Shown here: positions 1,231 through 26,201 of the stretch, one piece after another
Layout of the letters: each line of letters opens with the position of its first letter
How positions within the stretch are numbered: position 1 is the stretch's first letter
NCBI GenBank assembly: GCA_021234155.1
Contig: JAJEKV010000084.1
Location: forward strand, 1,240,001-1,304,000
From: Isoetes taiwanensis
Taxonomy: Eukaryota; Streptophyta; Lycopodiopsida; Isoetales; Isoetaceae
Direction of reading: 5' to 3'
Length of the DNA: 64,000 nt
The notes under the pieces: model-generated
Seen by the model: only the letters and a program-made list of their open reading frames with translations
Database searches by the model: none
What the model was told of the DNA's origin: nothing
Made by a program: the position numbers and the translations under genes

Positions 1231-1294
1231 GATCACACGACGCGTCGCTGTGGCCTACTTAGCTAGCGTAGAGACGGTTTTGCGTCGTGTGATC
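1231..1294. repeat. Hairpin element 1
   Basis: Inverted repeat of 64 bp: left arm GATCACACGACGCG, right arm TGCGTCGTGTGATC, with about 36 bp of unrelated sequence between. It lies just upstream of the unknown gene at 1318. Confidence 0.92.
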
Positions 1295-1317
1295 TCCTTA
1301 TCTTTTCATTTCTTTCG

Positions 1318-2175
1318 TTGACACGTGTTTACAAACAAATTTATTGTGCAGGTTTATGTTTATCAGACGTCGTGGATGTCGTTCCGGCCGAAAGCATTAG
1401 TAGTGTACTTGTCGTGTATCACATAGACATCGGAATTGTCCTTTTCCAAGGTATGGATGTCGTGACCTTGCGGGGTATAGGCATCTGGTTTTACGGACAT
1501 GATTACAACGTAAAGGTCAGGAAATCGAGCTTGAGACCGGTTGAATTGCCCCTTTAAGTGAACTTTGTAAGCCACAGACTAATGAAAACAATGTAATTGC
1601 AATGAAGAAATGCCTGGCTGACGAGGTGCAAGCAGGAATGTCTGAAAACGGAGGCGTGAGGATGAGTTTCAAAATCTTCACGTCGTTTGAGGTATTTGCT
1701 AACATATTCCAGATGGCACAGGAAGTTCGAAAAGCTCCGAAGACATATACGTGCTTTCTCCCCCCCTGCCGATTTTGTGGATGGCTTATTTTTTGTTCCG
1801 ACCTGGGATGTTCGATTCCACGAATCATCCGGTCAACTAACAGAGTGCCGCGTAGTTAAGTCCTCCTTTAAGTTCAGATACTTTCTTCCAAAACAATATT
1901 TATACGTTAATTGTCAACTAGAACGAAGGAAATAGAAAAAGAGAGGCTGCACAACTTTTTGGGAGCCGTTTGAGGACCATAACAGACACTCCGATGCGGT
2001 AGATATTCGAGTATGGCAAGGGGAGGAAGTCATTTATACAGACATCATGGAAATCGAATGGCCATTATCAGAGCTAAGAGTGCTAGTGGAGACAGAGGAG
2101 ATTGCTAACGACTTCCATTATTTCATTGATGGCATTAGGGTTGGCTACAGGCAAAGAGGAAAATGTAAGGTTTAG
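1318..2175 (+). pseudogene. Hypothetical gene between hairpins 1 and 2
   Basis: I do not recognise this gene. Open blocks on the plus strand run from about 1318 to 1557 and 1602 to 1859. Another block begins near 1687 and continues in one frame past a TAG at 1933-1935 to a stop at 2173-2175. The last block reads like a real protein end, with an aromatic and acidic composition (WEPFED, FHYFIDGIRV). Frame changes and the in-frame stop mean it is either split by short introns or decayed. It sits between hairpins 1 and 2, matching the way other genes in this element are bracketed. No domain could be named. Confidence 0.35.
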
Positions 2176-2465
2176 TGAGTTCGCGATCAACAAGAAATTG
2201 TCTATCGCCTAGCGCTTTGAATCTCAGTTTTTTATTTGTGTTTTTGTCCGATGTTTTTTTAGGGTTCCTTATTTTGTCCGATATTTTTTTAGGGTTCCGT
2301 ACAATTATTTAAAAAAGTCACCATCATATTTTACTTTAACTTCTGTTTTTTACTATTTATCTCTTGCCAGTTGTCTACTTTTGTCAGTGTTCGTAGTATA
2401 AAGTGCCATCCTCTGAGAAGCCTAGGTTCGCACTTTGTATTTTTTTTTTTAATGTTATATGTGAG

Positions 2466-2495
2466 GATCACACGACGCGCAGCAAGCATTGTGCT
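2466..2495. repeat. Hairpin element 2, left part
   Basis: Left arm GATCACACGACGCG of a hairpin element, cut by the Gypsy insertion. The last five bases GTGCT (2491-2495) are the target site duplication. With 13668-13703 the uninterrupted element would be 66 bp. Confidence 0.9.
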
Positions 2496-3087
2496 TGTTT
2501 GGGGTCTGGGTTCGGGAACTCCTGCAAGACAGCCCTCTGTGAGGACCCTTGGATCTAACAGGAGAATCCGGGAGCTATGTCACGCGAGATTTGCAAGAAA
2601 AAACAAGGAAAAGAGAAAAGAAAACAACAAGAACAATGAGATCACAATAATAAGCTTCATTGATGTCAATGAAGATACATGAGCTCTCGCAATCGAGAGA
2701 AAACTGAACTGAGACAAGACTCAAAACTCATCTAAAAAACTCATGTGCTAGCTCTACTCATATATATAGTACAATGGCCTTTGGCCCAATATAGACACTG
2801 ACTGATTTCGGTGCCGACTCCTGGAAGGAGGCCTGATTTGCAGGAATGCTGGCGGTGCCTCTTGAAAAGCCTGAAATCACGCCGACACGGTCGGTGTGAC
2901 GGGCGTCATTGTCTTGTCTCGCGCCGCCTCTTGTTGACGCCAGCGTGGTCTTTTTGTCTGCGTGGTTCGCTTGGTCTTCTGCATTGGGCCTTTGACGACT
3001 GACCCGCGCTGGTTGTGGATCCTTGGCCTTGACCACAGTGTCAGATGCATGAATAGTCCCGTACATCAGAGGCACACGGGACTAACA
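2496..3087 (-). repeat. 3' LTR (element sense)
   Basis: 592 bp, starting TG and ending CA, nearly identical to 13077-13662 apart from scattered differences. In element sense it is the downstream LTR because the polypurine tract abuts it at 3088. Confidence 0.95.
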
Positions 3088-3098
3088 CTCCCCCCACC
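3088..3098 (-). other. Polypurine tract
   Basis: On the minus strand the sequence GGTGGGGGGAG directly precedes the 3' LTR, the expected place and composition for a plus-strand primer of reverse transcription. Confidence 0.85.
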
Positions 3099-3571
3099 AA
3101 ACGACACTCACCAAGAAAAGGAGGAAGTGCCCGAGGGCGGAAACCCATGAATCGAAAGTGATCCTCACGGGAATGAGGACGGGGCGCCATTATGGTAATG
3201 GGCAATGAGGTCTTGGCGTGTTTGAAGAGCCGCCAGAGTGTTGAGCCCAAGGGCGTGGATCCGCATCAATGAGGAAGTGAGAGCGCACCATGTCTTCGTG
3301 GCAAACATGTGCATCGAAGGAACGAACCGGCACTCCATGAGAAGGTAGGTCCGAGACCGGAAGGCGACGCCGCATTCGGGTTGCGAAAAGATTGGACGCC
3401 GCCGATTTAAAGAGCTTACCAGATGCATCCGAGAGCAAGCGACGTAAAAGCGCCTTGACGGTGAACCAAGGGTCCGATGAGGTGGCATGCATTACCGCAA
3501 GAAGGTATCAAGACCATGAAGAGCATCAGCAGCCGCTGCCAACCACGCCATTAGCAATATAGATCCAAGTC

Positions 3572-6095
3572 TCAAGTGGTGTCCAAGGTGGCATTATCCT
3601 CCCAATTGAGAGAGTTCGACAAATCGGGGATCCCACCGAGATCCGCGAGATCCGAGGCGAGTCGACTCAGTGCGGGCCATCCATGACCTTCGCCCAAAAG
3701 GGAAGACGCCAGTAAGAGAGGAGGAACCGTGGGCGTGGAGGGACTCCCTAAGGAAGCATATGGAGAGGGAAGCATGCCTGCAAAGCGTGGGTTGCGAGCC
3801 ATGTCCCTAAATTCTCGAACAAGATTCTGATCAAGAGCACGACACCAATGGTCCCACTCTGAAGTAGAGAGTAATTGATAGACAGGAGGATTTACCCAAC
3901 CCGTTGGGATGGTCTTGCTTTCCAGAAGGCCACGTAGTTGATTGTAGCCTCCCAAGTGCTGCATATAAATTTGGGCGAACTCAAGATCGTCAGGATGCGC
4001 CAAATTTTTGTTTACCTGTTCCAATGTTTCAGCCTGCCACAGAGGTAAGTGCTGAGCAAGTTCAGGCATGTACTCCTGTTCAAAAGTCTGAGACCGAAAG
4101 GGGATCCTTGAAATATGGGTTGGTTGGTGATAACAACCAAGCAGCATTGGAGTTGCCTCGAAAAACACAATGGGCCTCATCTCGGAATTTATCATGGAGA
4201 TCCGCCAGGTAGAAGTCATGAAAAACATAAGCCATTGGCTGAACAACACGGAAAATGACCAAGTCGGGGTCTTCAGAATTGAGCTGATCAAAGACTAAGA
4301 GTGCACAAAATAAACCCTTGTCTTCTACAGAAAGATCCGGCCAGATCCGAAGGAAATCCGCACTTTTGAGTGGCTGTTGATGAACATTGCCATTGGCCGC
4401 GTACCACTTCAAAAGGAAAAGGTGCCGTCGGGCCACCACATAGTCAAGATAGCTGGAAGGAGTAGAGAAGTCCACAGGGATGTTGGTAGCAATGTCGATA
4501 TATCCCTCCTGTTTGTTTTGGGCTTCTTCAGCAGATTGAACTGCTTGCTGGAGCTGATGTTCCAGGTCACGGATCCGGTTCTCCTTTTCTAATAGAAGAC
4601 GTGACTGATCACGGACCCGTTTAATAGGAAGCGTGGCATGTGAAGAGGATTGCCCTGGAGTTTGGAGTCGAAGCGTGGCAATCTCAGCGTCATCAATGGC
4701 CTTCTGTTTCTGAGCCTCCGAAAGCTGATCCTGGATGGACGTTAGCTGATTGGTCAGCGTGGAAAGCTGAGCTTCGAGGGAGATGAGTCTAACATCACGC
4801 TCGGTAAGGTCATGAACTTGAGTGCGGTAATTGTGAGAAAGCTCCGTGTACAAAGTGTCAAGCTTAGCAATGTCTTTCTCCTTGTCACCCAGGAGGGTAT
4901 CTTTTGTCTTGTTCTGCTCCAACAAGTCCTGAATTGTGGTTTGGAGCTGAGCCTGTTGATCTTCAAGCAGGCTGGTCTGATCCTGAGCATTTTTAAGATC
5001 CACACGGACCTGTAATAGAGCCTCGTGCTTTTCTTGAAGTTTGGCCTCCAGATTTTGAATTTGTGCAGTGGCAGCTTGAAGGTCTCGGTGAATTGCATCA
5101 AAAGCCTCCAGGGACGCCTGAACACCATTCATCAGAGCGTCCTGTGATGCTTGTAACTGCAGGGCGGCAGCTTGAACATCCTGCTGGAATTGGTATAGAA
5201 GCTGGCGAGGATTTGGAGGTGCTGGGCCCTGTTGCTGCCTTGTCTGAGATTGTTGGGAGACATGACGGGAAGTGGAAGGCGTGGCTTCAGTGGAGGAAGA
5301 GGAGACAGTGACATGCGTGGTCTGGTTTTGAACATGACCAGGGGAAGTCTGGCGTGAAGGTACAGCCTGTTGGTTTTGACGCTGGGAATGCAGAGACTGC
5401 TGAGTGGAGGCATGAGAAGTGGAAGGGGTCTCAGGAACAGGAAGATAATGACGGATGAGTGCCTGAAGATGGCCACCCACTGAGGCTTCATGTCCAGAGG
5501 AGGGGGCAGCCCGAATGCGGTCGATTTCATGAAGGAGGCGGTAGAATAACATCTGGGGCCAATCAATATGGAGATTGGAGCGGGTGGCAGTGATCACCAT
5601 ATTATAGAACGGCTTATTGATATGGGTGTTCTTGATAGAATACCCAAGGAATTTGCGCCACAGAAACTTCACAAAAGTGTCATGTGACTTGGCAATATTG
5701 GTGAGACGATGCTGGTTGGCTTGATAAGCAGGAGCACCGAACTGAGTGACGTCCATGTCCTGTAAAGCAGCCCAAGATACAGAAGGTTTTTGCAAAGGAA
5801 TACGGAATACCTCAGAAATCAAGGGCTGAGTAAGTGAAATGGTGGTGCCATCGACCACCGTAGCAAGGCCTTCCGGGCCGTTGATGATGTGAGCGATGAA
5901 CTGCTTCAATTGCTCCGAATTTGGGGCCGGGAGCTCCATTTGCGAAAATTCGTAAAGCTTCTGGCGTTCCGCTACTTCTCGACTCGGACCAACAAGGGCC
6001 TCGCGAAAGGTGGGCGTCGAGAAAGACACAGACTCGAAAAGAGTCGCATCCCTTGGAGCAGAAACTTGAAGTGTAGGAAATTTGGGTGTAGCCAT
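3572..6095 (-). CDS. Extra ORF of the Gypsy element, coiled-coil protein
   Basis: ATG at 6095 opens a 671-codon frame; a frameshift near 4200 moves the reading into a second frame ending at 3572, about 840 residues in total. The first 200 residues form a globular region with regularly spaced hydrophobics. A Gln/Ser/Pro-rich linker follows, then a long coiled coil (roughly residues 295-510) rich in Gln, Leu, Glu and Lys. The N-terminal part resembles proteins carried by plant retrotransposons and annotated as plant transposon protein domain, but I cannot confirm that family. It is in element sense between integrase and the 3' LTR, where Athila-type elements carry an env-like ORF. No signal peptide or membrane segment is visible, so an envelope role is not supported. 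Confidence 0.75.
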
Positions 6096-6199
6096 GGCGA
6101 AGAGCGTCGGAACAGAAGGAACTGTCTGGAGAAGGCGGAGAGTAGAGAACAGAAGACGAAGGCGCAGATAGACGAAAAGGTTTTAGGGCGCGCAAGTGT

Positions 6200-7030
6200 A
6201 GGCGAAGGGGCATGATGAGGGCGAACCGGCAACCGTTGATGATGCCAGGTGGCGACAGATGTGAAGTAGGCGATTGAGATGCAAAATTTTGGCTAAGTCC
6301 CCAAACGGTAAAGGGAGAAGCAAGGAACGGTGGCGATGAGACGTAAGAGAATGATCGGATGTAACAAATGGCTTAAAAGGACGACATTAATGTTCGACGG
6401 GCGTGAAAAGAAGGAATGTCATTTAATGCCGGGCAACTCGAAGTGGGATATCATTAAAACGGAAGGTGTCGGGTACCATGGCAGATATGCGCGCGGAGAA
6501 AAGATTCCCCATTTAGAAACAAATTTTGCATTGCAAAACACGCTGGTTTAAATTTCTGATTGGTCCACGCCGATGTGGAGGTCCTCGGTTGGCTATATAA
6601 GACTAACAAGCGGTGGTGGAAGTCGAGACACCCGATGGCGCCAAGATGTTCCGCCGCCGGATCGCACGACAAGTGCACTATGCCGCCTAACCGCTCGGAG
6701 TGGATTACATGCAAGATGGACCTGCTTGGACCTCTCGGCGGTGCCACAACCGTGGCATTGCCATGGACGGTGGTGTGCCGGATGGCTGAGCATCCCGATC
6801 CCCACACCAACGGATGGAGGTGATTCTCGCACCGCTACTGGGACCCCGAAAGCGTAATTACTACCACATCCTACGTGATCACCGCTCCAAACCCGAGTAG
6901 AGGGCTTTTTCTCCTTAGGACTTAGTAGATAGGGCTCTCAGCCCGCTTTTTTGTAAATAGGGCTCGCCCATAGCGAAATAGATGGGCTCGCTCATATTTT
7001 GTAAAAATTTCACCTCGATAATATAAATAT
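6200..7030. other. Non-coding part of the Gypsy element
   Basis: Region between the integrase end and the extra ORF. Only short unconvincing frames are present. It contains near-repeats of GGGCTC-type phrases at 6930-7000. Confidence 0.5.
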
Positions 7031-7038
7031 GCCGCTTG

Positions 7039-8545
7039 TTAGTCACTATCCATTGTGTCTGTGGTTCCGAACAAAGACATCGATGGATGATTGTGACTTT
7101 CTGTTGTATGAAATTGTTTGAGGCGAAAGCCATTAACCAGTGTAGGTAATGGAGTGCCATCTAATTCAGCCAGCTTGAAAACGCTGGGTTGTACCACTTG
7201 AACAATTTGATAAGGACCAAGCCATCGAAACTTTAACTTGCCCGGAAAATTTTTGTAACGGGAATCATAAAGAAGAACCAAATCTCCTTCTCTCGAGAGT
7301 TTTTGTCTTAAGTCGCTTTGTCATGCAATGATTTTCGCGAATCGCTGGCCATGAAGAACTCGAAAGTAAGCATCACGCCGAAGTTCATCCAACTGTTCCA
7401 ATTGATAAACCCTTTCCTTGAGTGCAGCAAGTGGATTATATGCTGTAGCCAGTTGGAAACGGAGAGTCGGAAGAATATATTCAAAGGGCATGAGAGCTTC
7501 TTGACCATAAACGAGTTTGAAAGGAGTGTGACCCGTAGCAATTTTGAAACTAGTGTTGTAAGCCCAAAGAACAAAGAGGGCAACTTTTCCCGCTAACTGT
7601 TTCGCGGAAGGCCACAAATTTTCTTTGATGAGTGTTTTGTTGGTACTTTTAGCCAAGCCATTTCCTTTGAGGATAATAGGGTGTACTCTTCCGGTGTTGG
7701 ATGTGAAGATAATCCGTCGGCTCCTTAATAGTATGGTTGACAAAATGCACGCCACGCATCACTAACAAGTTCCGTGGGACAACCAAAACGCCGCGTGATG
7801 ATGTGCGTAGAGAACCTTTCAGCGGCCTTTGGCAGCCGGTGTTGTCGAAGTGCACAAGCTTCCGCCCATTTAGTAGCATAATCCGCGGATGACCGTAATA
7901 TAACGCACGGTGTGGCAGCCGGTGGGTCCATGGGCCCCACAAAATCCATTCCCCATTTGGTCGAAGGGGTGTGGCATGGCGACCGCGCCAAGGGAAGAGC
8001 GACAAGGGCCGTGGGCTTTCCCACACGCCCATTGCAGACGCCACACGCAAGCAGCATAAGCGTGGGCATCTTTGAAGAGCGTGGCCGAAGTATCCCCGCC
8101 AAAAGAATTTTGCGTGCCGTGGCGTCACCACTAAAATGACCACCACCAAGCCCATCGTGGGCTTGTCGAACAATGCCAGGCACCTCATGAGGGAGGACAC
8201 AACGACGGAGGACCATGTCTTTGCCTCGTTTATACAAATGGCCTGCAACCATGGTATAGTCACGGACTTCTCTGAGAAACTGACGGTGGCGGAGAGTAAG
8301 CTTTGTCCGAGAGAGCGTCGGATCGGCGGGAGGAAGAGCACCAGTGAGAAGATATTGCTGAAAGTTGTGAAACCAATGGGGCGTGGTCGTGACCAGGAAC
8401 AACTGAGCGTCTGGAAAGGCGTCAGAAACACCCGTGGAGGGATCATCCGTGTGGATGCGTGAAAGATAATCAGGCACCACATGAGATTTTGCCCGCCTTT
8501 ATGAACAATTTCAAGGGAGCGAACTCTTGCGTAAGAAGGACCCAA
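7039..8545 (-). pseudogene. Gypsy integrase
   Basis: The zinc-binding N-terminus (HDGLGGGHFSGDAT) starts near 8200, followed by the catalytic core with the first Asp in KWGMDFVGP and the second in ELVSDAW. The third catalytic position reads GNGLAKSTNKT, with Lys where family members have Glu (usual form NGxAESTN). The reading changes frame near 7670-7740. The C-terminal module with GPYQIVQV at 7281-7039 is the GPF/Y motif of Gypsy integrases. Loss of the catalytic Glu and the frameshifts mean the enzyme is dead. Confidence 0.9.
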
Positions 8546-8879
8546 ATGAGCAATGCGTCCTGGTGGGCGTGGCTTTGTTGATCAAATAAAGAAGAGCTTG
8601 ATGATCAACAAAGAACTTGATCTGGTTTCCCAGCAAATAATGTTGGAAACATTGGACACAAAAGACTAAGCCCAAGGCTTCCCGTTCCGTGGCAGAATAG
8701 TTGCACTCAGCAGGATTGAGTTTCCGGCTGGCATAGCGGATTGGTTTATCCGTGGTTTCATCATAGGCCTGAGAGAGAACAGCACCAATTGCAAAGGCAG
8801 AGACGTCAACATGAACATGAAAAGGCTTGTCCCATTGAGGAGGAACAAGTACCGGGGCCTGAGTAAGTAACAGCTTCAA
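8511..8879 (-). CDS. Gypsy RNase H domain
   Basis: Open frame with the RNase H triad in context: Asp in VDVSAFAIGAVL, Glu in ATEREALG, Asp in FVDHQALLY. It follows the reverse transcriptase in element sense. The domain removes RNA from the RNA-DNA hybrid during retrotransposition. Confidence 0.9.
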   Translation of the reverse strand: MKLLLTQAPVLVPPQWDKPFHVHVDVSAFAIGAVLSQAYDETTDKPIRYASRKLNPAECNYSATEREALGLVFCVQCFQHYLLGNQIKFFVDHQALLYLINKATPTRTHCSFGSFLRKSSLP

Positions 8880-8956
8880 CTTCTGAAAAGCAGCTTCCGC
8901 TTGGGAATTCCAAGCCCAAGTGGATTCATCACCCGTGAGGTTATGAATGGGGTCAG

Positions 8957-9760
8957 CTATAGCTGCAAGTCCAGGAATGAAGAATAGTAATTGACCTTAC
9001 CCAGAAAAGAACGTGTCTCTTTGATATTAGACGGTGCTTGAGCTTTCAGTACACAACTGATCTTAGCGGGATCCGTGGTGATGCCTTCTTTACTGACCAC
9101 ATGACCCAACAGAACGCCTGAGGTGACGCAGAAAGTGCACTTCTCAGGATTGAGGCTAATGCCAGATTCATCACATTTTTGAAAGACAAGTTCCAATTTT
9201 TCCAAATGATCTTCCATGGAGCTGTAGGCAGAAAAATCATCTTGAAAGATCTGAAGAAAAGGTTTATCCTTCATAAAGTCTTGAAAGACGGAGAGCATGA
9301 TGCGCTGAAAAGTGGAAGGAGAGTTTGACAAACCAAAGGGGACCACCTTGTAGGCAAAAGTGCCCCACGGGGTGGTGAAGGTGGTTTTGAGTTGATCTTC
9401 TTGCTTGATAGAAATTTGATTGTACCCAGAAAAACCATCCATGAAAGAGTACATCTCATGACCAGCAACTTCTTCAAGAACCTGCTCAGTAAAGGGAAGC
9501 GGAAAGTGATCACGCTCCGTTGCTTGATTGAAGTTTTCTGTAATCCACGCAAACGCGGATCTTACCATTGTGTTTGAGAGCAATGACGATGGGGCTCACC
9601 CATTCAGAATGTTTGACCTCATAAATCAGGCCAGCAGCCAAGAGTTTGTCAATTTCAGCCTTGACGCGGTCACGGTAATTTGGGTTGAGCCTGTACTGTC
9701 GTTGCTAGATTGGGCGTGCATCAGGTTTGGTAGGAATGGTGAGTTCCCCCAATTCTGTTT
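8957..9760 (-). pseudogene. Gypsy reverse transcriptase
   Basis: The block at 9583-8957 carries YSFMDGFSGYNQI, PFGLSNSPSTFQR and the active-site motif as FQDDFSAYS (YxDD in active relatives). The N-terminal part (KAEIDKLL, GKIRVCVDYRKLN) is present in other frames between 9583 and 9760, so at least two frameshifts break it. Confidence 0.9.
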
Positions 9761-11570
9761 TGATACCTCGAAGGTTTGTAGCTCCAAGCAAAGATATGTT
9801 TGAATTTCTTGAACAGCGTCACAGCGCGTGCTTTATAGGTTGGTGGAAGTTTAGCAGCTAAGCGGACGGGTTGATTGTTTCCTATGTCCACGATTTCCAC
9901 GTCGGGAGTTTGAATGTGAGGAACAACCTCCGTGTCCTGAACCTGATGAGCAGGAGGCTGAAGCATGACGGGAGGAGCAGCATTTTGCGTCGTGAAGAAA
10001 AGAGGTTGCTGAGCGTCATCAAGCAAGGGTTGCTTCATGACGGCATGAACATCAACTGTCTCTGAAGAAGAAAGTGGGTCAGAAAAATGATCAAGTCGTT
10101 GAATGCGATTGCAGGAAGCCAGGTAAGGGTCCAAAAGAGCGGCCACAGCCTGGTCCTGATCGAGCGTCATGTCACCCCAAGGATCAGCATACTCAGGATA
10201 AGATGAGAGAGGTAGACCCGCTGGAGGAGCTTGAACATGATAAATGTTTTGTGCTTCTTCAGAGTCAGTGTCGGAGATGGAAGGTTCAGCATTTTCGACA
10301 GAGATCAATTGGCCAGTTTCCAGGTCCATTGTGGCATTGAGATGGCCATCGGTGATAACAAGTTGGTCCGTGGCCCAGTAATGAATGCTCTTAGCCTGGC
10401 GGAGAAAAGGTCGTCCAACCAGCATTTCATAATCACCAGGATCTTCTCCTGCTTTCCAAACACCAAATTCCAAGGGGAATTTGAGATCACCAATGCTGAT
10501 GTGGAGAAGAGGAGTGACGCCTTGAGGGCGCGTGATGTGGCCATTTGCCAACTTGATGTCATAAGGGGCACGGTATAATTGTTTGATGCCCAATTGCTTC
10601 CTGAGTTTATCAGTAATAAGATTGACGGCAGTACCACCATCAATTTGGACATGATTGATATGTTGATTGCCCACCGTGGCATGCACCGTGGGTGTGGAAG
10701 TCGCAACAGCTCCAACCAGAACCGTGGGAAGAGGTAACTGATCTTTGAGAGCCGGACAGAGTTTCAAAATAGTGGCCAGGCTCAAAGGAATCTTGATCTT
10801 GGCAAGTTCTTCCTGAAGTTCCAAGGGAACATGTGAAAAGGGGTCCACAGGGTCCAATGGAGCTGGGGACTGTGGTAAAGAAGCAGAAACTTCTTTGAGA
10901 AGCTCAACCTCAGCAGCAATATTTGGATATGGCTGAGAGCGTGCACTGGTGGATGATGACGGTGCTGCCTGACGCTGCTGAGCTCGCGTGGTGGCATGAA
11001 CATTGGCCAGTGTTCGACCTTCCGCAGCCTGCATGAGTTTCAGAATACTTTGTCTCACTTTAGGCATGACGTGAGGCATCAGTTTGTCAAGATCAGGGGC
11101 GAAGTGAACTTTTTTATCGTCTTCATGAGGGACAGTTTCCACGGCAAAAGCAGGTTGCGTGTCATGAGGGATGATGGACAAAGGGCGTGAAGCCCGTGTG
11201 TGACGCGAGACAAGACCAACCCAATTGGACTGTTGGATAGGAGGGTTGAGAGCCTGATAAATCTCCTCCTGAGCTTGTTGATCCATAGGATTGGAAGTAG
11301 ACGCAGCTTGCTGAGGGCGCTGTTGTTGAGGCGGTCGAGGAGGCTTTCTCAAAACAGGACGCGGGCCCTGTTTACCGTTGGCCACCCAGAGTTGATAAGC
11401 CGTGAGATGGACAGAAGCTGGTTGATTGGAACCCGGAAGTTGAACTTGAACTTGAGGAAGCTGAGGACACGCCATGGTGGTGTGACCCCATTCATGACAA
11501 TGATAACATTGAGCCTTTGAAGGATCAAAGGGAGGACGATTGCCTTGTCCCTGGGGCTGCTGAGATTGCT
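9721..11570 (-). CDS. Gag C-terminus, protease and N-terminal pol
   Basis: One long frame. Near 11480 a third CCHC knuckle (CYHCHEWGHTTMAC) is encoded just upstream of the first ATG (11475). A Gln/Pro-rich linker follows, then a retropepsin domain with IDGGTAVNLI at about 10620-10650 (DGG replacing the usual DSG/DTG, as in many plant Gypsy proteases), then the start of the reverse transcriptase (KKFKHIFAWSY). It is in the same frame as the upstream gag block but separated from it by a TAG at 11569-11571, possibly a decayed codon. Confidence 0.88.
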
Positions 11571-16243: not shown

Positions 16244-16364
16244 TCCATGCCGTTCTATCTTTGCTTCAATGAGAAGTTCTATCTTTACTTATGTATCAGT
16301 AAAATTACTTATGTATAGATTATATCACCGAAATTATCAATAAAAATTATTTATTTGTATTTAT

Positions 16365-16426
16365 TCACACCACGCAAAATACATCAGTCTGATTTTCTAA
16401 CGAACACGAGCTTTCGCGTCGTGTGA
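16365..16426. repeat. Hairpin element 6
   Basis: 62 bp: TCACACCACGCAAAA ... TTTCGCGTCGTGTGA, the duplicate of hairpin 3. Confidence 0.9.
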
Positions 16427-16471
16427 TATTTCTCTGGAAGAAAAGACGCGAGAAGTAACAGTCCTTTTTCC

Positions 16472-16533
16472 TCACACGACGCGAGAAGTAACGGTCCATT
16501 TTCCTGACCGACGGCATCCTTCGCGTCGTGTGA
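16472..16533. repeat. Hairpin element 7
   Basis: 62 bp: TCACACGACGCGAG ... TTCGCGTCGTGTGA, the duplicate of hairpin 4. A partial extra left arm (GACGCGAGAAGTAAC) precedes it at 16445-16459. Confidence 0.93.
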
Positions 16534-16556
16534 CTCAAGTACTATGAAATCTATGT

Positions 16557-16565
16557 TATAAATAG
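16557..16565 (+). promoter_or_regulatory. TATA box of coiled-coil gene 2
   Basis: TATAAATAG lies 96 bp before the ATG at 16653 and 24 bp after hairpin 7. Confidence 0.7.
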
Positions 16566-16652
16566 GAGACCTATCTTGCCTTCGACCTCCGATCCTCTTC
16601 CGCCTTCCGCCTTCTGCTCATCTTCTACTTCCGCCTTCCGCCTTCTGCTCCG

Positions 16653-17018
16653 ATGGCATCTTCATCTTCCTCTAGCAAGCGACCGCGCCCAGAGCTGCCC
16701 GTGGACATCACCCTTGCAGTAGTGATGAAGAGATTCAAGGAGATTCACGACGAAAACAGTCGTCTTGTCGTCGAGAAGATCGAGGCGGTCGACAGATTCG
16801 AATTCACGAGGGGGTTGCTGCATGAGCGAGACATTGAGCTCGCGGCAACATTCACCATGTACCGAGAGGCCAATAGCCGCAGGGCCGAGGCAGTTTTAAC
16901 TGCCCACAATATTTCGTAGGCGTTAGAAGATATGGAGAAGAAGCTCCGAGCTGCGGAGGATGAGAACGCAGCTTTACGGCTTCAGCTACAGGATCACCAA
17001 AGTCAAAGAGGATCATGA
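16653..17018 (+). pseudogene. Short coiled-coil protein 2 (nonsense mutation)
   Basis: Tandem duplicate of coiled-coil gene 1. ATG at 16653, motif LPVDITLAVVMKRFKEIHDE, then the coiled coil in one frame. A TAG at 16917-16919 replaces the CAG seen in copy 1 (after AHNIS); the frame then continues to TGA at 17016-17018. This copy does not have the frameshift of copy 1, so the two are broken at different places. It is bracketed by hairpins 7 and 8. Confidence 0.78.
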
Positions 17019-17114
17019 AGATCCCTAGCCATTGTATCTATATGTTTTTTGTTTCAAAGAAAAGTTTTCTCTATTTTTTGCTTCTATCTGTTCTCTTGTT
17101 TTGTTTTATTGAAA

Positions 17115-17181
17115 GATCACACGACGCGAAATGCCATGCTTGCAATTAGGTAGCAAACAATGGATTTCGCGTCGTATGATC
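17115..17181. repeat. Hairpin element 8
   Basis: 67 bp: GATCACACGACGCGAAA ... TTTCGCGTCGTATGATC, the duplicate of hairpin 5. Confidence 0.93.
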
Positions 17182-17588
17182 TCCATAACGTACACCTCGT
17201 TGTATGTACAAATTCTTAATTTATTAATAGAAAACTATATGTAACACAAATATCTAGCTAGATTATGTGATATCTTGCAGGTAAATGCGAATTAGTCATA
17301 TCTAGGTTTGGCAAGCGCCAGCACTCAAAGCACGTGGCATGTGGATTACAACGTCTACTCATATACGTGGCATGTGGTTGACAATGTCATGCCAAGAACG
17401 TGGCATGCGCTGCCACAATAACACTGTCTTTTGTACGGCCTGCATACAGTACGGCTAGGATATGACGGATCCCATGATGCGAACATAGGCTACCGTTGCC
17501 TAATTGCATGCTATAATTTCGCCTCGTAGGATAATTACACAACTTTATCGGTACTCGCAACCGTAGATTCCAACGTATATCTAGTTTC
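17182..17588. other. Intergenic region upstream of coiled-coil gene 3
   Basis: No gene seen. It holds several repeats of ACGTGGCATG between 17332 and 17410 and a poor cousin of the hairpin arm near 17515 (TTTCGCCTCGTAGGAT). Confidence 0.5.
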
Positions 17589-17597
17589 TATATAAAA
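17589..17597 (+). promoter_or_regulatory. TATA box of coiled-coil gene 3
   Basis: TATATAAAA lies 98 bp before the ATG at 17687, the same distance as in the related genes. Confidence 0.65.
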
Positions 17598-17686
17598 CGT
17601 CGGAGGCCTTTGTCTTCTCCTATCCGCCATCTCCTGTTCTACCACATCCGCCCTCAGCCATCTCTCCTGTTCTCCCATCACTTTCA

Positions 17687-18103
17687 ATGGCCTCCACCTC
17701 CAGTTCCATCCCTGTCGAGATCTTGTCTCACGTTCTGGTCAAGGAAATTAAGAACATTCGTGCTGAAGCGGAGGAACGGATCCGCCTTCTGAAAGAAAAG
17801 AATGATGAAGACGTCGCCAAGCTGGTTGCGGCAGAGGACAAGGCCGCCTTCTATAGGGAGGTGATTTTAGTGCGCGACAATCAGCGGGCTGCCATAGACC
17901 GCGAATTGCGCGCCACGAGATCCAACCTCCAAGAGAGGCTTAGGTCCGCAATCGAAGCGGGCGAGGCTGCCCGAGCTAAACTCGATGAGCGGGAAGATAA
18001 GGTTGTAGAGTATGAGAACGTGGTTGCGGGACAGGCAATCATGTTGGAGGAGCAGAAAAAAATTATCACTGCCCTCCAGGAAGAGCTTGCCCGGCGATCA
18101 TAG
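17687..18103 (+). CDS. Short coiled-coil protein 3 (intact)
   Basis: Intact 138-residue frame. The N-terminus is MASTSSS, followed by IPVEILSHVLVKEIKNIR, the diverged form of the family motif. From residue 25 to the end it is almost all charged heptads (AEEERIRLLKEKND, REDKVVEYENVV), predicting one long coiled coil. No signal peptide or membrane segment is present. Function is unknown. A hairpin (element 9) lies about 150 bp after the stop. Shared N-terminus, length, TATA spacing and hairpin bracketing make it a paralogue of the other three coiled-coil genes. Confidence 0.8.
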   Translation: MASTSSSIPVEILSHVLVKEIKNIRAEAEERIRLLKEKNDEDVAKLVAAEDKAAFYREVILVRDNQRAAIDRELRATRSNLQERLRSAIEAGEAARAKLDEREDKVVEYENVVAGQAIMLEEQKKIITALQEELARRS

Positions 18104-18256
18104 GCATCGGGCTCCTCCTAGAGGGGCCCGTTTTTTTTTTTTTAATGTTCGTAATTATTTTGTTTTTGCAATGGGAAAAGTTTTTGAAAATTGTGCCGAA
18201 TATTACATTTCCTATTTTTAATTTTCAATATCCGTGGTAGAGAGAATGACAAGACA

Positions 18257-18321
18257 GATCACACGAAGCGAAACCCTTCATAGGATTTTAAAGTGCGTGT
18301 GCAGATTTCGCGTGGTGTGAT
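18257..18321. repeat. Hairpin element 9
   Basis: 65 bp: GATCACACGAAGCGAAA ... TTTCGCGTGGTGTGAT. Arms are slightly diverged and the centre is unique. Confidence 0.88.
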
Positions 18322-18336
18322 ACAGTGTAGTTAGAA

Positions 18337-21300
18337 TCCTCCTATATTATAAAGTTATTCTGTAAGTGTTGGACCCAGCCCTAGATCCGACCCGGGGGAT
18401 TCACCTCTATTATAGGTATATATGCCATGTGTGTTCCTTAGGTTGTCAAAAAACCCATTGTATACGACAGTTCCATACGAAAAACCCTTTGTATACGACT
18501 ACATTATTTGTAAAAGAATGCAGCCCATATCATTTACTTGCCCAAAACACTTTTACTTGACAACCCTTTCCGACATCTCTATTACTTTATATATTATCTA
18601 TTACTTTATATATTATCATAGTATTAATACTTATTATGTAAGTATTAATACGTAAGTAATTTTATAAGTGATATTTTATAAGTTAACGAAAGGAAACTTA
18701 AAACATACAGCCTCGGCATTCATACAGTAGAAGCTCACCAAAAATGACAGACCCTTACAGTATGAATACGAATCGAACATTGGCGCCACCACACTCCCTC
18801 TGGTATCTATACGGCATTCAAACTATAAAAACCTTATATTTTTCTTATATATACGGTACCAGAGAGGCAATAAAAAAACCCATTTGGTGCACTCACATAT
18901 TTCATACCCCATAATCTAGGCGAACCCCCCGGGGATCCGACGGCCAAGATTTGATTAAAAATTTGGACGGTTGAAATATCCTTCCTCTTCTCGCTCTATG
19001 CGATTTAGGGATTTAGGGCATCATCTGGCCTGTTCTTCCAACTTAGCTATCTCGAGTAAAAGTTATAGGTACCGGATCTCCGAGAGCATGGCGGCCGTGT
19101 TGCAGAAATCTTCTTCAGCAGTTAGTTCGCTCCACATCTGACCTGCCAATGTTCTTACCGAAGGTCGAATCAATCTTCTCTGCCAGTTGAAGAGATAAAA
19201 AGCAGTGTAATATTTAGGGTCCAAGACGGCCGGAAATTTGAAGCGCTTTGGTTCAGAGATGTTTGTGCAGACACAGGAATTGTGGAGCTCTGTCTATAGT
19301 TGCTGAAAGTATGTAAATGCTATGTTTTTACTTTGTTTCTTGAATGCAATCTTCAGCAAAGTCAGTTTCAACAAACTCTGTCTTTCCAGTATCGATTTCA
19401 GCAAATTCGATTTATGCCTATAGGTATACTTTTCATTTGGACTTACAAACTCGGCCTAAGCAAAATACATTTAGATTCTTTGTCTACTGCTTGGGTTAAT
19501 CAGGCTAAAACTCCAACAGCCTGTGAACTTTTTTATTGTGGACGACTGTCTGATGGAGTTTACTGCAAAATTTCGGCATGTTTGTCTGCTGAAGTTTACT
19601 GCTGAGTTGTGGCAGTTGCTTGAAGCTGAAGTTTTGACCTGATTGATTCGGCTTTCAGCTTTATTATAATGATATTCTTTTGCCTGGACATACCAGGCAA
19701 GATCACAGAGGTATTTGTTTCATTGTGGCTTGATTTTCTAGAACAAAATGGCCCTGTCTATATCTATCAATCCCAGTTCCAATCATTTCTAAGTGTGGTA
19801 TCTCCTTTTTATTTCTAGGGTTAGAAACAATCAAACATGGAGACATCAAAATGGTTTGAAAGCTTCAAAGATAACTTGAAGTTTACTCACGAAGGGCATC
19901 GAATTTCCAAACCTTTGCATGGGCAATTTGATGTAAGTACTTACCTGTAAATTAAGCTCTTAAGCTCTGTATGAGGAAGGATATCATATTTTGTAAATTT
20001 TCTACTATTTGTTCCTTAGCTCTAATACACCTTTTACTCCTTCCAGGATTGCTAAGACAGAAATTAGTAAGAGTCTGCTTTTCCGACGGTAAAAGAAGAT
20101 TTGATAACACTCAACTTTAAAGGTATGATCTGAGTCTTATCTTGCTCATTTGTTCAAAATATTTGTTTTCTTTTATTTAGGAATTTGCTCCTACTGCGTA
20201 TATACTGGACGACCCTGCCTTTGGAGTTCTGCTCCCCAGTGCAGTGTTGTTACGTGTTGTAGTGCTATGGCTTGGTTCAATTTTTATAGTCTCCTTTTAT
20301 CAGGTATAAAAGTTGTCCTTTTCTTGATACAAAAAGTACTTCTTGCACAGAAGTAGTTACAACATCTTATTGAGAGACTTGAAGAGGCATTATTAAAGGC
20401 ATGTAATGATTGCTGAAAAACCCAAATAAATCCTGATATCTTTGAAGAATACAGGTTTCACTCCAACTGTGGATATTTATACTGAGAAGAAGTTATTCTC
20501 AATAAGTTTCCTTGAGTTTACCAGTTTTTATAGTCCTTTCTACTTCCTGTATAGGTAAAATTGGGAGGGAACTCCTAATGCTTATACATTATCTTGAACT
20601 GAACAACTGGAATATGTAAAATATTAAAGAAGTTTGATAAAAAGGTTGGTTTCAGAGTTGGAGAACATTATCCTGCAGCACGAATTAACCACCCCCACTC
20701 TCAACTGCAGCCTGTTTATGAACAGCTGGCATTTAAGTCTAGCACCATATAGAATAATTTGATGCAGTGTGCCGTGGCATAACTGCTTTTGTTATCTTTG
20801 GTGGCAAAATGTGATGTAATATAGAGTGAATCTGTATGTGTCTAGGTTATCAACATAACATGAAAGTGGAATATGAAGGCCCATATATGCATGGTTTCTG
20901 CCATTCCTTATACATCAGGTACTCAAGCTTGTATTATTTTCTAAAAACCATGGCCCTTCTCTAGCAAATCTAGGTTGCACAATGGTAATGAGAATTTAAA
21001 AACTTCTCCTTGGAAATTGACCGTTCTTCAATTTGTTATATTGGCAGGCTTTGGGTAAATTTAATCAGTGCAAAGATCTCTTTGCATGGAGGGAATGCTA
21101 TATTGGCAGGCTTTGGGTAGATTTATAGAATGCTTAGAACTACAAGAATTATGCAAGGTGGCAAACAAATGATTGCAGTAGATCTACATATTCAACTGCA
21201 TTGCCATGTTCTTTTCCAACAATTACAATTTTACATTTAAATATTTAATTGTATTTCAATGTCCTTTTCCAATGCCATGTTCTTTTCCAACAACTACAAC

Positions 21301-22623
21301 TTTATACTTCAATAATTTTTCAACAACTACTTTATACTTGAATAATTATATTGTCATGTTCTTTTCCAACGACTACAACTACCCTTGATTAATTTAGCAG
21401 CTATTAGCAGTGTTGCAAAATATATCATCATATAGAGAAGGAAATAGATAAATTTGTTAGATCATCATATAGAGAAGGAAATAGATAAATTTGTTAGATC
21501 GGGAAATAGGTAAATTTGTTAGATCGTATGAAAAGAAAGGGTGGAATGATGTGTGATGTGGATTCTTCTTAAAGAACTTTCTCTCTAAAGTCCATTGCCT
21601 TTTTAACCTTTTCACCTACTGTCTTTTTCTGCCCCTTATATACGACCTCCAAGCCTTATATTTGCAGAGGATCTAGGTCCTAGCTGTATCTTAGGCCAAA
21701 GATGGAAGACAATAATGAACACAACTTAGGTACCAAATATCTTGGCATCATTATCAACCCTAGGGTAAGACATATTTTCTGTTGCATCCAAGAGAATGTA
21801 TCAATTTAACATCATGTTTTTGTTTTACAGATGCCTACAAAAAATGATACAGACGATGTGCTCCAACACATTGCTCAATTGGAGAAATCAATCGATGATT
21901 TACATGGTTCAATGACGTCATTCGATGCGAACTTAGATGAATGCCCAGACATCACCCTATACTTTGCCAACATCTAAATGGACGAATCCAAATGCATATT
22001 CTTGGCATCCGTTCATTTTTATCCTTTGTATAAAAATTACGAGAAAAGAAAAGCCAAGATATACATCACAAACAACGAAATATATACAACAAAATACATA
22101 GCAAAACTTGAGTTATTTATCAACAATCTATAGGTCCGTAGGATTGCATATTGGACAATGTATGTCATGTTGTCCTATCACACTGAAGAAGACGAACAAC
22201 TGGAGACTGAAGAGCAACAAGCACAAAACCAGGAGAGTGATGACCAACATATGCGGAGCCAACAACCAGGATTCGATCAAGACTTGGTAGAGATACTCGA
22301 AGAATGCACCTTGGAACTCCTCGCCACCTCACAGAGACTTTGACTATAACCTCACCTCAAACCTGCTTAGATTAACATTTTACTTCCACTCAAAATTGCT
22401 AAGAACAAGCATCACAATGTTCTACTCAAAGCTCTCAGAGATACCGATGCAAAACCATCTAACATGAAGGAGATAGGCTTCTTAAACGATCTTAAACCTT
22501 TGGAAAGTTTTCGTTATAATAAAAAGGTACAAATGTTGAATTATACTGCACGCTTTTCTCATTGTGGCTAAAACATTTATAGCCTCCCAAAGTATGCCCA
22601 GCAACGCTGGGCACCATTACTAG
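18337..22623 (+). mobile_element. Non-autonomous Helitron
   Basis: The 5' end TCCTCCTATATTATAAAG at 18337 and the 3' end, a GCCCAGC-AAC-GCTGGGC hairpin followed by CACCATTACTAG, are typical Helitron termini. Insertion is between A (18336) and T (22624), as expected, without a target duplication. No Rep/helicase ORF is present. Inside are short gene-like pieces: an exon-like block starting ATG at 19837 (METSKWFESFKDN) ending at a possible donor near 19932, and short peptides near 21700 and 22158. These may be captured fragments. It separates coiled-coil genes 3 and 4. Confidence 0.8.
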
Positions 22624-22743
22624 TAGTTATTAATGTGTTCCAGCGGACAGTACCATTAATGTGTTCTAGCGGACAACCGACAGAATCCGCTCGACACGTG
22701 CGACAACAGCCTACTGTGTTTAATATGTTCAAGCGCTAATATG

Positions 22744-22750
22744 TATAAAT
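22744..22750 (+). promoter_or_regulatory. TATA box of coiled-coil gene 4
   Basis: TATAAAT lies 93 bp before the ATG at 22837. Confidence 0.65.
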
Positions 22751-22836
22751 TGAGGTCCTTGCATTGTGCTCCTTCCGCCGGTTAGAGTCTTTGCTCCTCA
22801 CTTCTATAATCTTAACGTCCCTCCCATTTGTCATCT

Positions 22837-23307
22837 ATGGCCTCCACATCCTCAACTGCTGATAAGGGAAAACGCCAGAGGATAGAACTCCCTTCTGACA
22901 TAGTGTTGGGTGTTCTAATGAAGAGGTTGAAGGAGCAAGATGATCTTCTAAAGGAAAATGCCGTCAGAATTCAGCAAAAAGAAGAAGAGAATGAATTCAA
23001 CCTTCTCATGCTTCGTAGCCAGGAGAGGCAAATCGGGCGGTTGAATAGAAGGCTGGACAGGAGGGGATGCCCCAACAATTGCACTGAGATGGTTATGACG
23101 GCAACGAGGTTGTTTATTCAGGCAGAAGAACACGTTGTGGTATTGGGACAGGAGCGGGACATGTACAAAGAGATGGTGGACAGATTGGAGGAACGTTTGG
23201 ATAGGGTGATTGCTCGCTTGAGGAGAAGAGATGAAGACGAAGACGAGGACGGAGCTGATGATGATGATGAAGATAATGAAGAAGAGCTCGCACTGGAGCA
23301 ACAATGA
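22837..23307 (+). CDS. Short coiled-coil protein 4 (intact)
   Basis: ATG at 22837 opens a 156-codon frame to TGA at 23305. A Ser/Lys-rich start (STADKGKRQR) is followed by ELPSDIVLGVLMKRLKEQDD, the family motif, then a coiled coil and an acidic tail (DEDEDGADDDDEDNEEE). A short Cys-containing interruption (RRGCPNNCTEM) splits the coil. It is a paralogue of the genes at 15660, 16653 and 17687. Function is unknown. Hairpins 10 and 11 follow within 160 bp. Confidence 0.8.
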   Translation: MASTSSTADKGKRQRIELPSDIVLGVLMKRLKEQDDLLKENAVRIQQKEEENEFNLLMLRSQERQIGRLNRRLDRRGCPNNCTEMVMTATRLFIQAEEHVVVLGQERDMYKEMVDRLEERLDRVIARLRRRDEDEDEDGADDDDEDNEEELALEQQ

Positions 23308-23390
23308 GTCGTTGTATTTTGTTTTTCAATGTAACATTTTTCACAACTTTAATCAAAAGTAACCTTTTTTTATTATTATCTTGTAAAGCT

Positions 23391-23452
23391 TCACACGACG
23401 CGAAGCCACATAAATGCAAGCAATAGCGAACTCCACTGTTCGCGCCGTATGA
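23391..23452. repeat. Hairpin element 10
   Basis: 62 bp: TCACACGACGCGAAG ... TTCGCGCCGTATGA. It lies 84 bp after the stop of coiled-coil gene 4. Confidence 0.88.
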
Positions 23453-23461
23453 TACAAATAA

Positions 23462-23526
23462 GATCACACGACGCGAAGCTACAGTTGTGCAAACAAGGTT
23501 AGAGGCAAGTACTTCGCGTCGTGTGA
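23462..23526. repeat. Hairpin element 11
   Basis: GATCACACGACGCGAAG ... CTTCGCGTCGTGTGA, starting 9 bp after hairpin 10. The pair sits between two converging genes, coiled-coil gene 4 (plus) and the transposase-like gene (minus). Confidence 0.92.
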
Positions 23527-23602
23527 ACATGCTACACATTACAAGTATATTTTACCGATTCTTTGTCTCTTAGATCTCCACTGTTGCGATGCTAGTGGGG
23601 CC

Positions 23603-26012
23603 CTAGAATTTTGCCAAGCAACTTTCCATTTTCTCTTCAGCATTATGCCAATGGTGTTTACGACTTCTGGGTTGCTCCTTAAAGCGACCTTCTTGTCGTA
23701 TTTAGCCATCCCACCACTCTGTCATCTGTCTTAGAGGGTTGGTTCCCACATTTCCATCCCCTCTTTGAGTATTACGATGAAAGGCTATTTTAACTTATTT
23801 ATTCGACTTCTCTATGCCTTGTGCACTCCACACTGCTAGGCTTCCATACTTCCTAAAAAACCAAGGTGCATGAGCCCAAAAGATGTGCAAGTAGTGTGTG
23901 ACTTCACTCTCTCCCCATGCGTCTATGAAAGCCCTAATAAATTTGTTATTCGATTGCACGAACATTTCTGCATCTTCTCTTGTGAGGTCCATTCTCTGAA
24001 TGTATGGGAACAATTCAGACAATGCATCCCATGCTTTTTTTTTCCTCAATGTCGAACGAACGCCATCTGTGCGGTCCTGCTCCACATCAACCAGCAATTT
24101 TCCAAATTCATAGACCTTTTCTCCCATCTGGTTTCCGTTCAGAGCCTCTCTATGATTCTTTATGAAGCGTCGAGCTTTCACACCTCCAATTGACACCTTA
24201 CGAGGCACACTTGTTCTTCCTGCCCGTTTCTGATCGAGCTCTAATCTTACATTGCCACCATGCAAACCTGCTTCTGATAGAACATGTTCAACTCTACGAA
24301 TTCCTTCCTCTCTTCTCTTCTTGTCCGGAAATGTTCCACACGATCTGGACTCGAAAATATCATCTTGTCGATGATTCTCACAAAAGCGTGCAAAGTGCGA
24401 GATATGAACCCTCTCTAATGGAATGGGGAAAATGCCATGGAACTTGGGATCTTCTTCTCCTCTATTAGGAGCATTTGCTTGGTTAAGGGACAAGGTTGAA
24501 ACAGTCTTCCCAAGATTTTTGACTTCCTTGCATGATTGCAAGATGGACAACTTTTGCATGTTCCTTGTCCTCCTCCACTTATGTTGTACATTGCTTTCTC
24601 AGTTTTAAATCGGGACGCCAAGTGAAAAATTACTTTGTAAGATCCATAGTGATCTACTTGCAAATTTTCCCCTCCCTCGAATCTAGATATTAGACTCGGG
24701 ATGTCAGTTTGATTGAACACCCATTTCAATACCCCGTGGGTTTCTTTCTGAACTTTAAAGAGACCTAACCACCAGGTGTCATCTTCAGATTGACATGAGA
24801 ACCATTTTTTGGCATGCTTCTTTTTCTCGTCCGTCACCTCTACATCTTTTTTATTATTCTTGTTGCTCTTTGATTTAGATGTGCAATTGCATTCTCAATT
24901 GCTCTATTCATGATGACAACGGATACCCTCTCATACTTCTCAAACTTGGTCAATTCCATTTCATCCAATTTTATGCAAACTTCAATCTCACCATTAGTTT
25001 CTGCAACTGTTAAGTCATAATATTTGATAAGGAATTGTAAGAGAATAACCCAGGTCAACCCAAAGATTATTGCGTTCATTCATTCCAACTATATCACAAC
25101 AATCCTTGCCATTCTTATCTTTTATAGCTATGACAGGACCAGCACATTCAACGTGGTGCATCTCTCCTAATATGGCATACACCATCTTTGTCCTAGTAAC
25201 ACTTGTATTCTCGACAATTTGTGGACGTGGAGCGAATACTTTTTTTGTGCCCATTCTTTTCAACGCTTCGTGGAATGGCTTGAATAGAGAACGGTAACCA
25301 AGCCTACTGATGCCTACATCGTCACAAACAGTCTGTACATCTGTCGCTTCTAGCTTCTTGTAGATCTCTCCTAGTACCATTTCCAGGAGAGAAGAGTTGT
25401 AGGGCTGACAAATCATGTCCACTATCTCCCTGTTTGTCGCTAGGTTCTTCACTAAGTAACCAAGATTGGTCTTTGCTAGTGTTGTAAACGGACCTTGTGG
25501 CCGTGACCCTGTGTCTGAATGCACCTGATCCAAACTTCAGTTCCTCTATCGGTCGAAAGTGCTTCTTCCTTTCTCGCAAGCCAAGGGGTGTTTTCTTCAA
25601 ATTCTTTAACCTACATTGAAGCCCAAAGTTTGCTCTTTCGAGCTCTTGGATCTTTTCTTGCAGCTGCCCTATCGCCAATTTGGACTTGTCCACTTCGTAT
25701 CTCAAAGAAGTTTCCCTCCCCAAGCCGTCATTCCTTTCCTTCATTACAGTGGAGTAGAAAAAAGAGCTGCTGGTTTAAGTTATAATTCTCTTGTGACAAT
25801 CGGAAGCAGCTCATTTCAAGGAACTGTATTCGATTCCGAATGCCTTCATCCTCTCTCAATCTCTCACAATATCCCAGGAGGCCAGAGTTGCCGTCACCAC
25901 AAAATCGGACTAAACTTGAAACGTCCCGAAATGACGGTTTCTTGCCACTCAACGGATCCAATGGATATAAACTGCCATCCGCCCAGATGTTGACACTTTT
26001 TGAGCCCTGCAA
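23603..26012 (-). pseudogene. DDE-transposase-like gene, broken
   Basis: Coding blocks follow one another on the minus strand in shifting frames (26012-25728, 25744-25322, 25533-25015, 25079-24840, 24837-24415, 24559-23795), so there are several frameshifts. An in-frame TAA (23795-23797) and a TAA near 23715 interrupt the end. Candidate catalytic residues are Asp in CIKLDEMELTK (about 24964), Asp in LQVDHYGSYKVIF (about 24654) and Glu in SAQGIEKSNK (about 23805). The second Asp is followed by a CxxC motif (CKSCPSC). The end (NPLRQMTEWW) also fits the C-termini of RNase H-fold transposases whose last Glu lies in a G-x-E-x-x-N/H-K context, including RAG1-like proteins. Assignment is by motif only. 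A coiled-coil N-terminus (EKIQELERAN) precedes. The ATG is not identified; 26012 is a TTG. Confidence 0.55.
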
Positions 26013-26138
26013 GACGCAACACGTCGAGGTCTAAGTTCTTATTTTTTAGACCTCCGTTTTTACAATTGAAGACTGGAGCATATTCGTGAGTCAGTTGGAT
26101 CCTTATCCACACATCATTTGGAGCTTCCATACTGCGTG

Positions 26139-26201
26139 GATCGCACGACGCGAAATGAAGGTGTACAATTTGTATACCCCAGCACAATTCGCTTCGTGTG
26201 A
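26139..26201. repeat. Hairpin element 12
   Basis: GATCGCACGACGCGAAA ... ATTCGCTTCGTGTGA, the most diverged pair of arms. It lies upstream of the transposase-like gene, 557 bp inside the right terminal repeat. Confidence 0.85.

Follow-up and report, generated by a model that had tools for sequence, protein, structure and literature searches.

What are short inverted boxes for when they recur, pair after pair, along one very large transposon? The question is raised by a 64,000-nucleotide stretch of the Isoetes taiwanensis genome (GenBank assembly GCA_021234155.1, contig JAJEKV010000084.1, positions 1,240,001 to 1,304,000; hereafter the window), which contains a giant transposon bounded by terminal inverted repeats (TIRs) and, within it, 13 hairpin-like sites. 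A sequence-only reading of this DNA had described twelve of them as hairpins of 61-67 bp with conserved arms and unrelated centres, and had suggested protein-binding sites, transcription boundaries or processed RNA hairpins rather than copies of one miniature inverted-repeat transposable element (MITE). Our own view, held tentatively and with a confidence a little short of even, is that they are bipartite sites bound by a regulator, perhaps an anti-silencing one, that the element itself encodes, in analogy with another plant transposon. The protein-binding proposal and the dismissal of MITEs survive in this account; processed RNA hairpins are disfavoured.

Paired boxes in the window

With the arm sequence TCACACGACGCGAA as query, allowing up to 3 mismatches on both strands, 31 matches are found in the window where 2.06 would be expected, and none of 100 shuffles reaches 31. 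Arms that face inwards as pairs make up the 13 sites, namely the twelve reported earlier, each present at its reported place, and a degenerate one that had been overlooked. Their outer lengths are 60-63 bp, a narrower range than the one first given. No pair lies in the window outside 645-26796, in agreement with the earlier statement that there were none beyond the element. The sites are listed here with the transposon that carries them; G1 to G7 denote its genes, which are described later.

Giant TIR transposon, 645..26796: TIR CATTAGGGCGGATTTGGGGTCT(C/G)AAAATGGCC at about 645-676 and 26765-26796
h1, 1233..1292: in the presumed intron (about 1215-1351) of G1, with a counterpart in a 4-kb subfamily
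h2, 2468..13701: 62 bp, split by a long terminal repeat (LTR) retrotransposon and listed earlier as the pair 2466/13668
h3, 15352..15413: about 100 bp past the G3 stop
h4, 15471..15532: 24 bp upstream of the TATAAATA box that precedes G4
h5, 16179..16241: about 100 bp past the G4 stop
h3', 16365..16426: local duplicate of h3, with a different right part of the centre
h4', 16472..16533: duplicate of h4, upstream of G4'
h5', 17117..17179: duplicate of h5
h6, 17470..17531: degenerate arms (3+3 mismatches), upstream of G5, the site missing from the earlier list
h7, 18259..18320: between G5 and G6
h8, 23391..23452: past the G6 stop, with the minus-strand frame open through the site
h9, 23464..23526: in the gap where G6 and G7 converge, some 12 bp past the stop region of G7, with the minus-strand frame open through the site
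h10, 26141..26201: just upstream of the putative start of minus-strand G7, with the frame open through the site

Three of these pairs had been said to share their centres through a local duplication, and so they do, except that the sites at 15352 and 16365 agree in the left part of the centre only.

The same sites recur in other copies of the element. The window element was compared with seven fetched loci (C907, C908, C17, C926, C930, C952 and C954), all of which align to long parts of it, and hairpins were called with up to 6 mismatches summed over both arms. The element ends align in six copies, the window's included, and both ends are found in five of the seven fetched loci, where they bound elements of 12.4-17.0 kb. 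The ends of three more copies were sought in six stretches, one of which held a TIR end, so no end pair was added. The interrupted h2 stands unsplit in C908 and C952 and measures 56 bp in C930, and the arms and centre of the degenerate h6 recur unchanged in the C926 copy.

Searches of the 1.66-Gb host genome (1110 contigs) returned 1808 matches to the TIR core (901 + 907, up to 2 mismatches), 168 hairpins with perfect arms and 1332 matches to a degenerate hairpin pattern, against 0 for the control in each case (the reversed pattern for the TIR core and the degenerate search). The centres of 50 listed perfect-arm hairpins out of the 168 were read by eye and match h1, h5 or h9 or a diverged version of one of these. 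For the 1332 degenerate matches 50 places were listed; these too carry element-type centres by eye, and for 32 of them a zero-mismatch TIR is listed no more than 20 kb away. TIRs with mismatches lie outside that list, and the remaining 18 places cannot be judged by it, among them C17, whose TIR has one mismatch.

This distribution bears on the idea that the hairpins are very short MITEs nested in the transposon. Inverted arms, similar size and occurrence in several copies would all suit it, but thousands of dispersed copies with target duplications are not what the genome scan gave, and the listed matches carry centres of the element's own type. The centres are specific to a position and common to the copies, and by eye no convincing flanking duplication is present at 11 positions, which argues that the sites are not MITEs. 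On these grounds the MITE reading was rejected, and we regard it as very improbable.

Constraint on arms and spacing

Across the eight copies 65 hairpins fall into 11 position classes, not all of them present in every copy. Outer length is 62 or 63 bp in 57 of the 65 and 60-63 bp in 64, and the site can be described as two inverted 14-bp boxes, about TCACACGAYGCGAA, 60-63 bp end to end. In the 22 class arms, positions T1, C2, A5, G10, C11 and G12 are invariant (22/22), and position 9 is the most variable. Centres are nearly identical between copies within a class, and between classes only the arms and the length agree. The centres, described earlier as free, are thus free between positions only. 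The word 'unrelated' was also slightly too strong, as centres of different positions are weakly akin: their mean pair score is -2.73, against -4.35 (standard deviation 0.40) for dinucleotide shuffles, none of 500 reaching it. The kinship is fragile, with 15 of 200 shuffles reaching the score once h2 and h11 (the latter a class found in some copies near the right end) are removed. This gives the sites the look of old duplicates derived from a single ancestral unit, with drift allowed in its centre.

Within classes, changes outside CpG dinucleotides affect 22/944 positions in arms, 59/1680 in centres and 65/1296 in 12-bp flanks, a mild trend. The clearest evidence that arms and spacing appear to be held more firmly than the centre comes from a subfamily of about 4 kb (L034, L035), which has a perfect TIR in common with the element and a G1 relative that is decayed and contains stop codons. 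The subfamily's intron site is the counterpart of h1. In a comparison of C908 with L035, this presumed intron site measures 63 vs 62 bp, and its arms agree at 25 of 28 positions, its centre at 17 of 34. Identity is 24/52 in the 60 nt before the site, 37/60 in the 60 nt after it, and 153/290 and 215/318 on the exon sides. An intact intron site of the 4-kb type stands in six further places among the matches listed, with at most 1 base different. The arms of this subfamily have a version of their own, mostly TCACACCA(T/A)GCGAA, with 1.25 CpG per arm vs 2.59, as would be expected if site and binder co-evolve.

Inverted arms would also be found in hairpins that act at the RNA level, as processing signals or small-RNA precursors. 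Counting G-U pairs, 193 of 210 arm positions are pairable, and some sites lie in the presumed intron or in possible leader or 3' regions. The changes in the arms, however, are not compensatory. Of the 16 departing position pairs in the 13-kb family, 15 changed one-sidedly or differently and 1 changed alike, no more than arms paired at random give (787 of 2000 such pairings do as well); the corresponding figures for the 4-kb family are 2 alike and 7 not. This points to each arm being read as DNA and against a selected RNA stem, and a stem of 14 bp closing a loop of about 34 nt would be a weak design. In the window, no Rfam match at gathering scores and no transfer RNA were found. We hold an RNA-level role to be improbable.

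The carrier element and its genes

Markers and hairpins in C908 and C954, together with the open reading frames (ORFs) of the window, give the order of genes and sites along the element. It begins with G1 (h1 in its presumed intron), G2, h2, G3, h3, (h4), G4 and h5, continues with (h3'), h4', G4', h5', (h6), G5, h7, G6, h8 and h9, and ends with G7 on the opposite strand, h10 and (h11), the bracketed sites being present in some copies only. Single copies have gaps, h7 being missing in C908 and both h1 and h2 in C954, and the copies are so decayed that some sites, such as these two, fall under the detection threshold. The G7 marker matched in no copy, and the G5/G6 or G1 markers are absent in C930 or C926. 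The genes of the window copy, with the insertions it has received, are as follows.

G1, 912..2175, plus strand: putative two-exon gene, approximate borders
G3, 13851..15249, plus strand: probably multi-exon, approximate
G4, 15661..16078, plus strand: coiled-coil-like, paralogue of G4' and G6 and, more distantly, of G5
G4', 16651..17022, plus strand: duplicate of G4
G5, 17687..18103, plus strand: coiled-coil-like, distant paralogue
G6, 22837..23307, plus strand: coiled-coil-like paralogue with an acidic tail
G7, 23539..26128, minus strand: probable RAG1/Transib-type transposase gene, broken in the window copy, approximate borders
LTR-retrotransposon, 2496-13662: inside h2, with GTGCT on both sides and long ORFs on the minus strand
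Later insertion, 18338..22623: five of the seven fetched copies run straight across it, C907 has other DNA there and C952 is uninformative

A telomere-like CCCTAACCCTAAC stands at 13702-13720, directly after h2. Outside the element, a long GATA tandem repeat lies at 180-300, just beyond its left end, and nested inverted and direct repeats of CTCGACTCGCGAGTCGAG-like units lie at 28426-28945.

The paralogous genes invite a reading of the hairpins as recombination sites that shuffle gene cassettes, like the attC sites of integrons, which also have inverted conserved arms and a variable centre and stand beside genes. Constant arms that bracket paralogues would agree with it, as would the duplications by which copies differ and the internal inversion by which C930 is rearranged. 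Yet no recombinase was recognised in the 18 pieces of element proteins scanned for domains, nor was an integron integrase seen; C908 and C954 agree in the order of those markers that were found, and, unlike attC, the sites flank genes on either side and occur in a presumed intron as well. Cassette shuffling is accordingly rated a highly improbable explanation.

Among the proteins themselves, G4 and G4' are 34-39% identical to G6, and G5 is 25-26% identical to it; no homologue of this coiled-coil family was found at E <= 1 among 7993 scored candidates. For G1 a BAH domain was considered from likeness by eye only and was set aside, Pfam, protein and PDB searches having returned no match.

G2, a histone H3 homologue, was looked for in the window copy and not found, and it remains in all seven fetched copies (for example L020 6188, plus strand). 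In C954 the histone fold is matched by Pfam Histone at E 5e-23 (82 bits vs a cut-off of 26), and the best PDB rows are H3 and H3 variants at E about 4e-20. The tail reads ARTKQTAR in five of seven copies (C908, C952, C926, C954 and C930, the first codon of the last not being ATG) and ARTKQSAR in C907; in C17 a frame shift disrupts it. Isoleucine takes the place of lysine at residue 9 (K9) in six of six readable copies out of the seven. The frame is broken somewhere in every copy, and tail and fold never stand in one unbroken frame. Judged from its sequence, G2 is a histone H3 by both fold and tail, and a transposon-borne H3 homologue makes it plausible that the element acts on chromatin.

The transposase is probably of the RAG1/Transib type. 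Relatives of G7 (P0001-P0028) include one in the fern Adiantum capillus-veneris, 36% identical over 60% of the query, and others that stem mainly from short contigs. With the predicted structure, plain Foldseek gave no significant match, and RAG1/Transib came out on top only in a VIA second look. In the literature listings screened by title and abstract opening, no paper was seen that describes a plant RAG1-type transposon or a transposon-borne H3.

How the element inserts is also unusual for this type. A target duplication of at least 3 bp is absent in 21 of 23 insertions with both ends; there is one 5-bp match, in C908 only, and one 4-bp match, and a subset of 17 gave 0 for the 5-bp match. 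The empty site of C208, in L028, equals both flanks joined without CA..TG. The TIR starts with CATTAGG, and the element ends read CATTAGGG or close variants, not a CAC-type terminal heptamer. For Transibs, 5-bp target duplications are described as typical (PMC4411706). The family here differs from that in its single 5-bp match among 23 insertions, and further in its TIR start, many genes, plant host and high copy number. Spy elements are TIR transposons without target duplication that use a Harbinger-type transposase and a fixed target. The present element resembles them in its TIRs and its lack of target duplication, and differs in its probable RAG1-type transposase and in that no obvious target motif was seen in its flanks.

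Could the hairpins then be transposase recognition sites, subterminal or internal, that are needed for mobilisation? The window copy has h1 588 bp and h10 595 bp from the respective element ends, and the arm starts CAC after T; RAG/Transib ends start with CAC. The end symmetry is not general, as h1 lies about 690 bp in from the end in C908, C930 and C926, and by eye the arm sequence is absent from the TIR. Most hairpins are deep inside the element, beside genes. Three short derivatives, L031, L032 and L033, have perfect TIRs with 566, 588 and 99 bp between the TIR ends and contain no hairpin; the interiors of L031 and L032 are shared by eye, so this form has apparently multiplied without hairpins. 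The hairpins thus seem dispensable in cis for mobility. A function in chromatin or in the expression of genes is more likely than one as sites that the transposase recognises in cis, which we consider decidedly improbable.

Placement and chromatin context

The drawn coding intervals make up 62% of the window element without its inserts, and all 13 window sites fall outside them. A random 62-bp placement is wholly non-coding with a frequency of 0.322, which puts the chance of this arrangement at 0.322^13 = 4e-7, or at 4e-6 with an exponent of 11, three sites being local duplicates. In the element's non-coding DNA the CpG observed/expected ratio is 1.01 without hairpins and 1.19 with them, and it is 0.50 in the later insert and 0.55 in the window beyond 27000. 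Undepleted CpG is compatible with escape from methylation.

The main rival to our view holds that the hairpins are promoter, terminator or insulator elements (transcription boundaries) that serve host proteins and have no anti-silencing role. The distances speak for it: TATA boxes follow h4 and h4' after about 24 bp and h6 after 57 bp, and h3, h5, h7 and h8 lie about 80-160 bp past stop codons. A general host site, however, would be expected near host genes too, and the 50 listed perfect-arm sites (of 168) are element-type by eye. It would moreover be unusual for promoters or terminators to use one symmetric site at both the starts and the ends of genes. We rate the host-factor explanation as possible, if on the unlikely side.

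Bipartite binding sites

The reading that we favour, binding by an element-encoded protein, would work as follows. The two inverted 14-bp boxes would act as one double-stranded DNA site, and the sites would probably descend from one ancestral site, retained for the most part where the element has gaps between its genes. Both boxes would be bound by a sequence-specific protein, most likely one of the element's own, which would then keep flanking promoters and gene ends open, by activation or anti-silencing, as VANC does on VANDAL.

The VANDALs of Arabidopsis are Mutator-like elements. As set out in PMC5735166 and PMC10398659, VANC binds a family-specific motif in VANDAL non-coding DNA and introns and removes silencing, motif and protein drifting together; the motif, YAGTATTAY, is 9 bp long and stands in tandem arrays of one orientation. 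VANDAL/VANC is the nearest working analogue. Both are multigene DNA transposons in which a short motif, family-specific here as far as the listed matches go, is repeated and drifts between subfamilies, and as far as gene models go the motif has a non-coding or intron placement in both, with the proviso here that in some copies h1, h8/h9 and h10 have open frames running through them. The present element differs in its probable RAG1-type transposase and in that no VANC-like protein was recognised.

Several observations weigh against binding by an element-encoded protein. The probability given for non-coding placement is optimistic, for the intervals were drawn by us after the hairpins had been seen, all copies are decayed, and some sites are crossed by open frames: h1 in C908 and C926, h8/h9 in six copies (minus strand), and h10. 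These three places may not be non-coding (h10 may be leader or coding), and the open frames lowered our confidence from even to just below it. The CpG contrast is uneven, with ratios of 0.74 in the retrotransposon, 0.76 in the element's coding DNA, and 0.78-0.94 in whole elements of six copies against 0.31-0.95 in flanks, and the family's youth could be its cause. In the 18 protein pieces scanned there is no DNA-binding domain above cut-off, the bZIP hit of a G7 piece (E 0.006) falling short of the cut-off for that domain, and the binder could be host-encoded instead. No hairpin was seen between G1 and G2 in the order of the copies, and the intron site of L034 is decayed, with 3 and 4 arm mismatches. 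The arms are, as noted, largely pairable as RNA. Finally, each site is a single pair of 14-bp boxes, inverted and at a fixed distance from each other, unlike the same-orientation tandem arrays of VANC motifs.

Meaning for the element and its host

A wider picture can be drawn, although we think it doubtful: a RAG1-type transposon with a self-made anti-silencing kit, made up of an H3 variant with isoleucine at K9, 62-bp landing sites and insertion almost free of target duplication. In fission yeast, H3 K9M is a dominant-negative decoy for methyltransferases of histone H3 lysine 9 (H3K9), and isoleucine at position 9 may act in the way K9M does. The element's variant, which keeps K4 and has isoleucine at 9, might possibly be such a decoy; an element protein would mark the element's own DNA through the 62-bp sites in most intergenic gaps, and insertion without target duplication would perhaps proceed by blunt-end joining of RAG-like signal ends. 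A partial parallel is offered by fungal DNA transposons that encode a TET/JBP dioxygenase (PMC12730594). There too a DNA transposon carries a gene that could counter silencing, that gene being a demethylating enzyme and not, as here, an H3 homologue combined with repeated DNA sites.

If binding by an element-encoded protein is true, the hairpins would add another plant transposon to those that recognise their own DNA by its sequence, and the sites would be a new variant of transposon self-recognition motifs. Their simplicity, two 14-bp boxes at fixed spacing, allows direct testing. The surrounding element, probably RAG1-type, almost free of target duplications and carrying an H3 without K9, is on the evidence of decayed copies in one genome more surprising than the sites themselves, and it would bear on how transposons escape H3K9-based silencing and on the spread of RAG-type recombinases.

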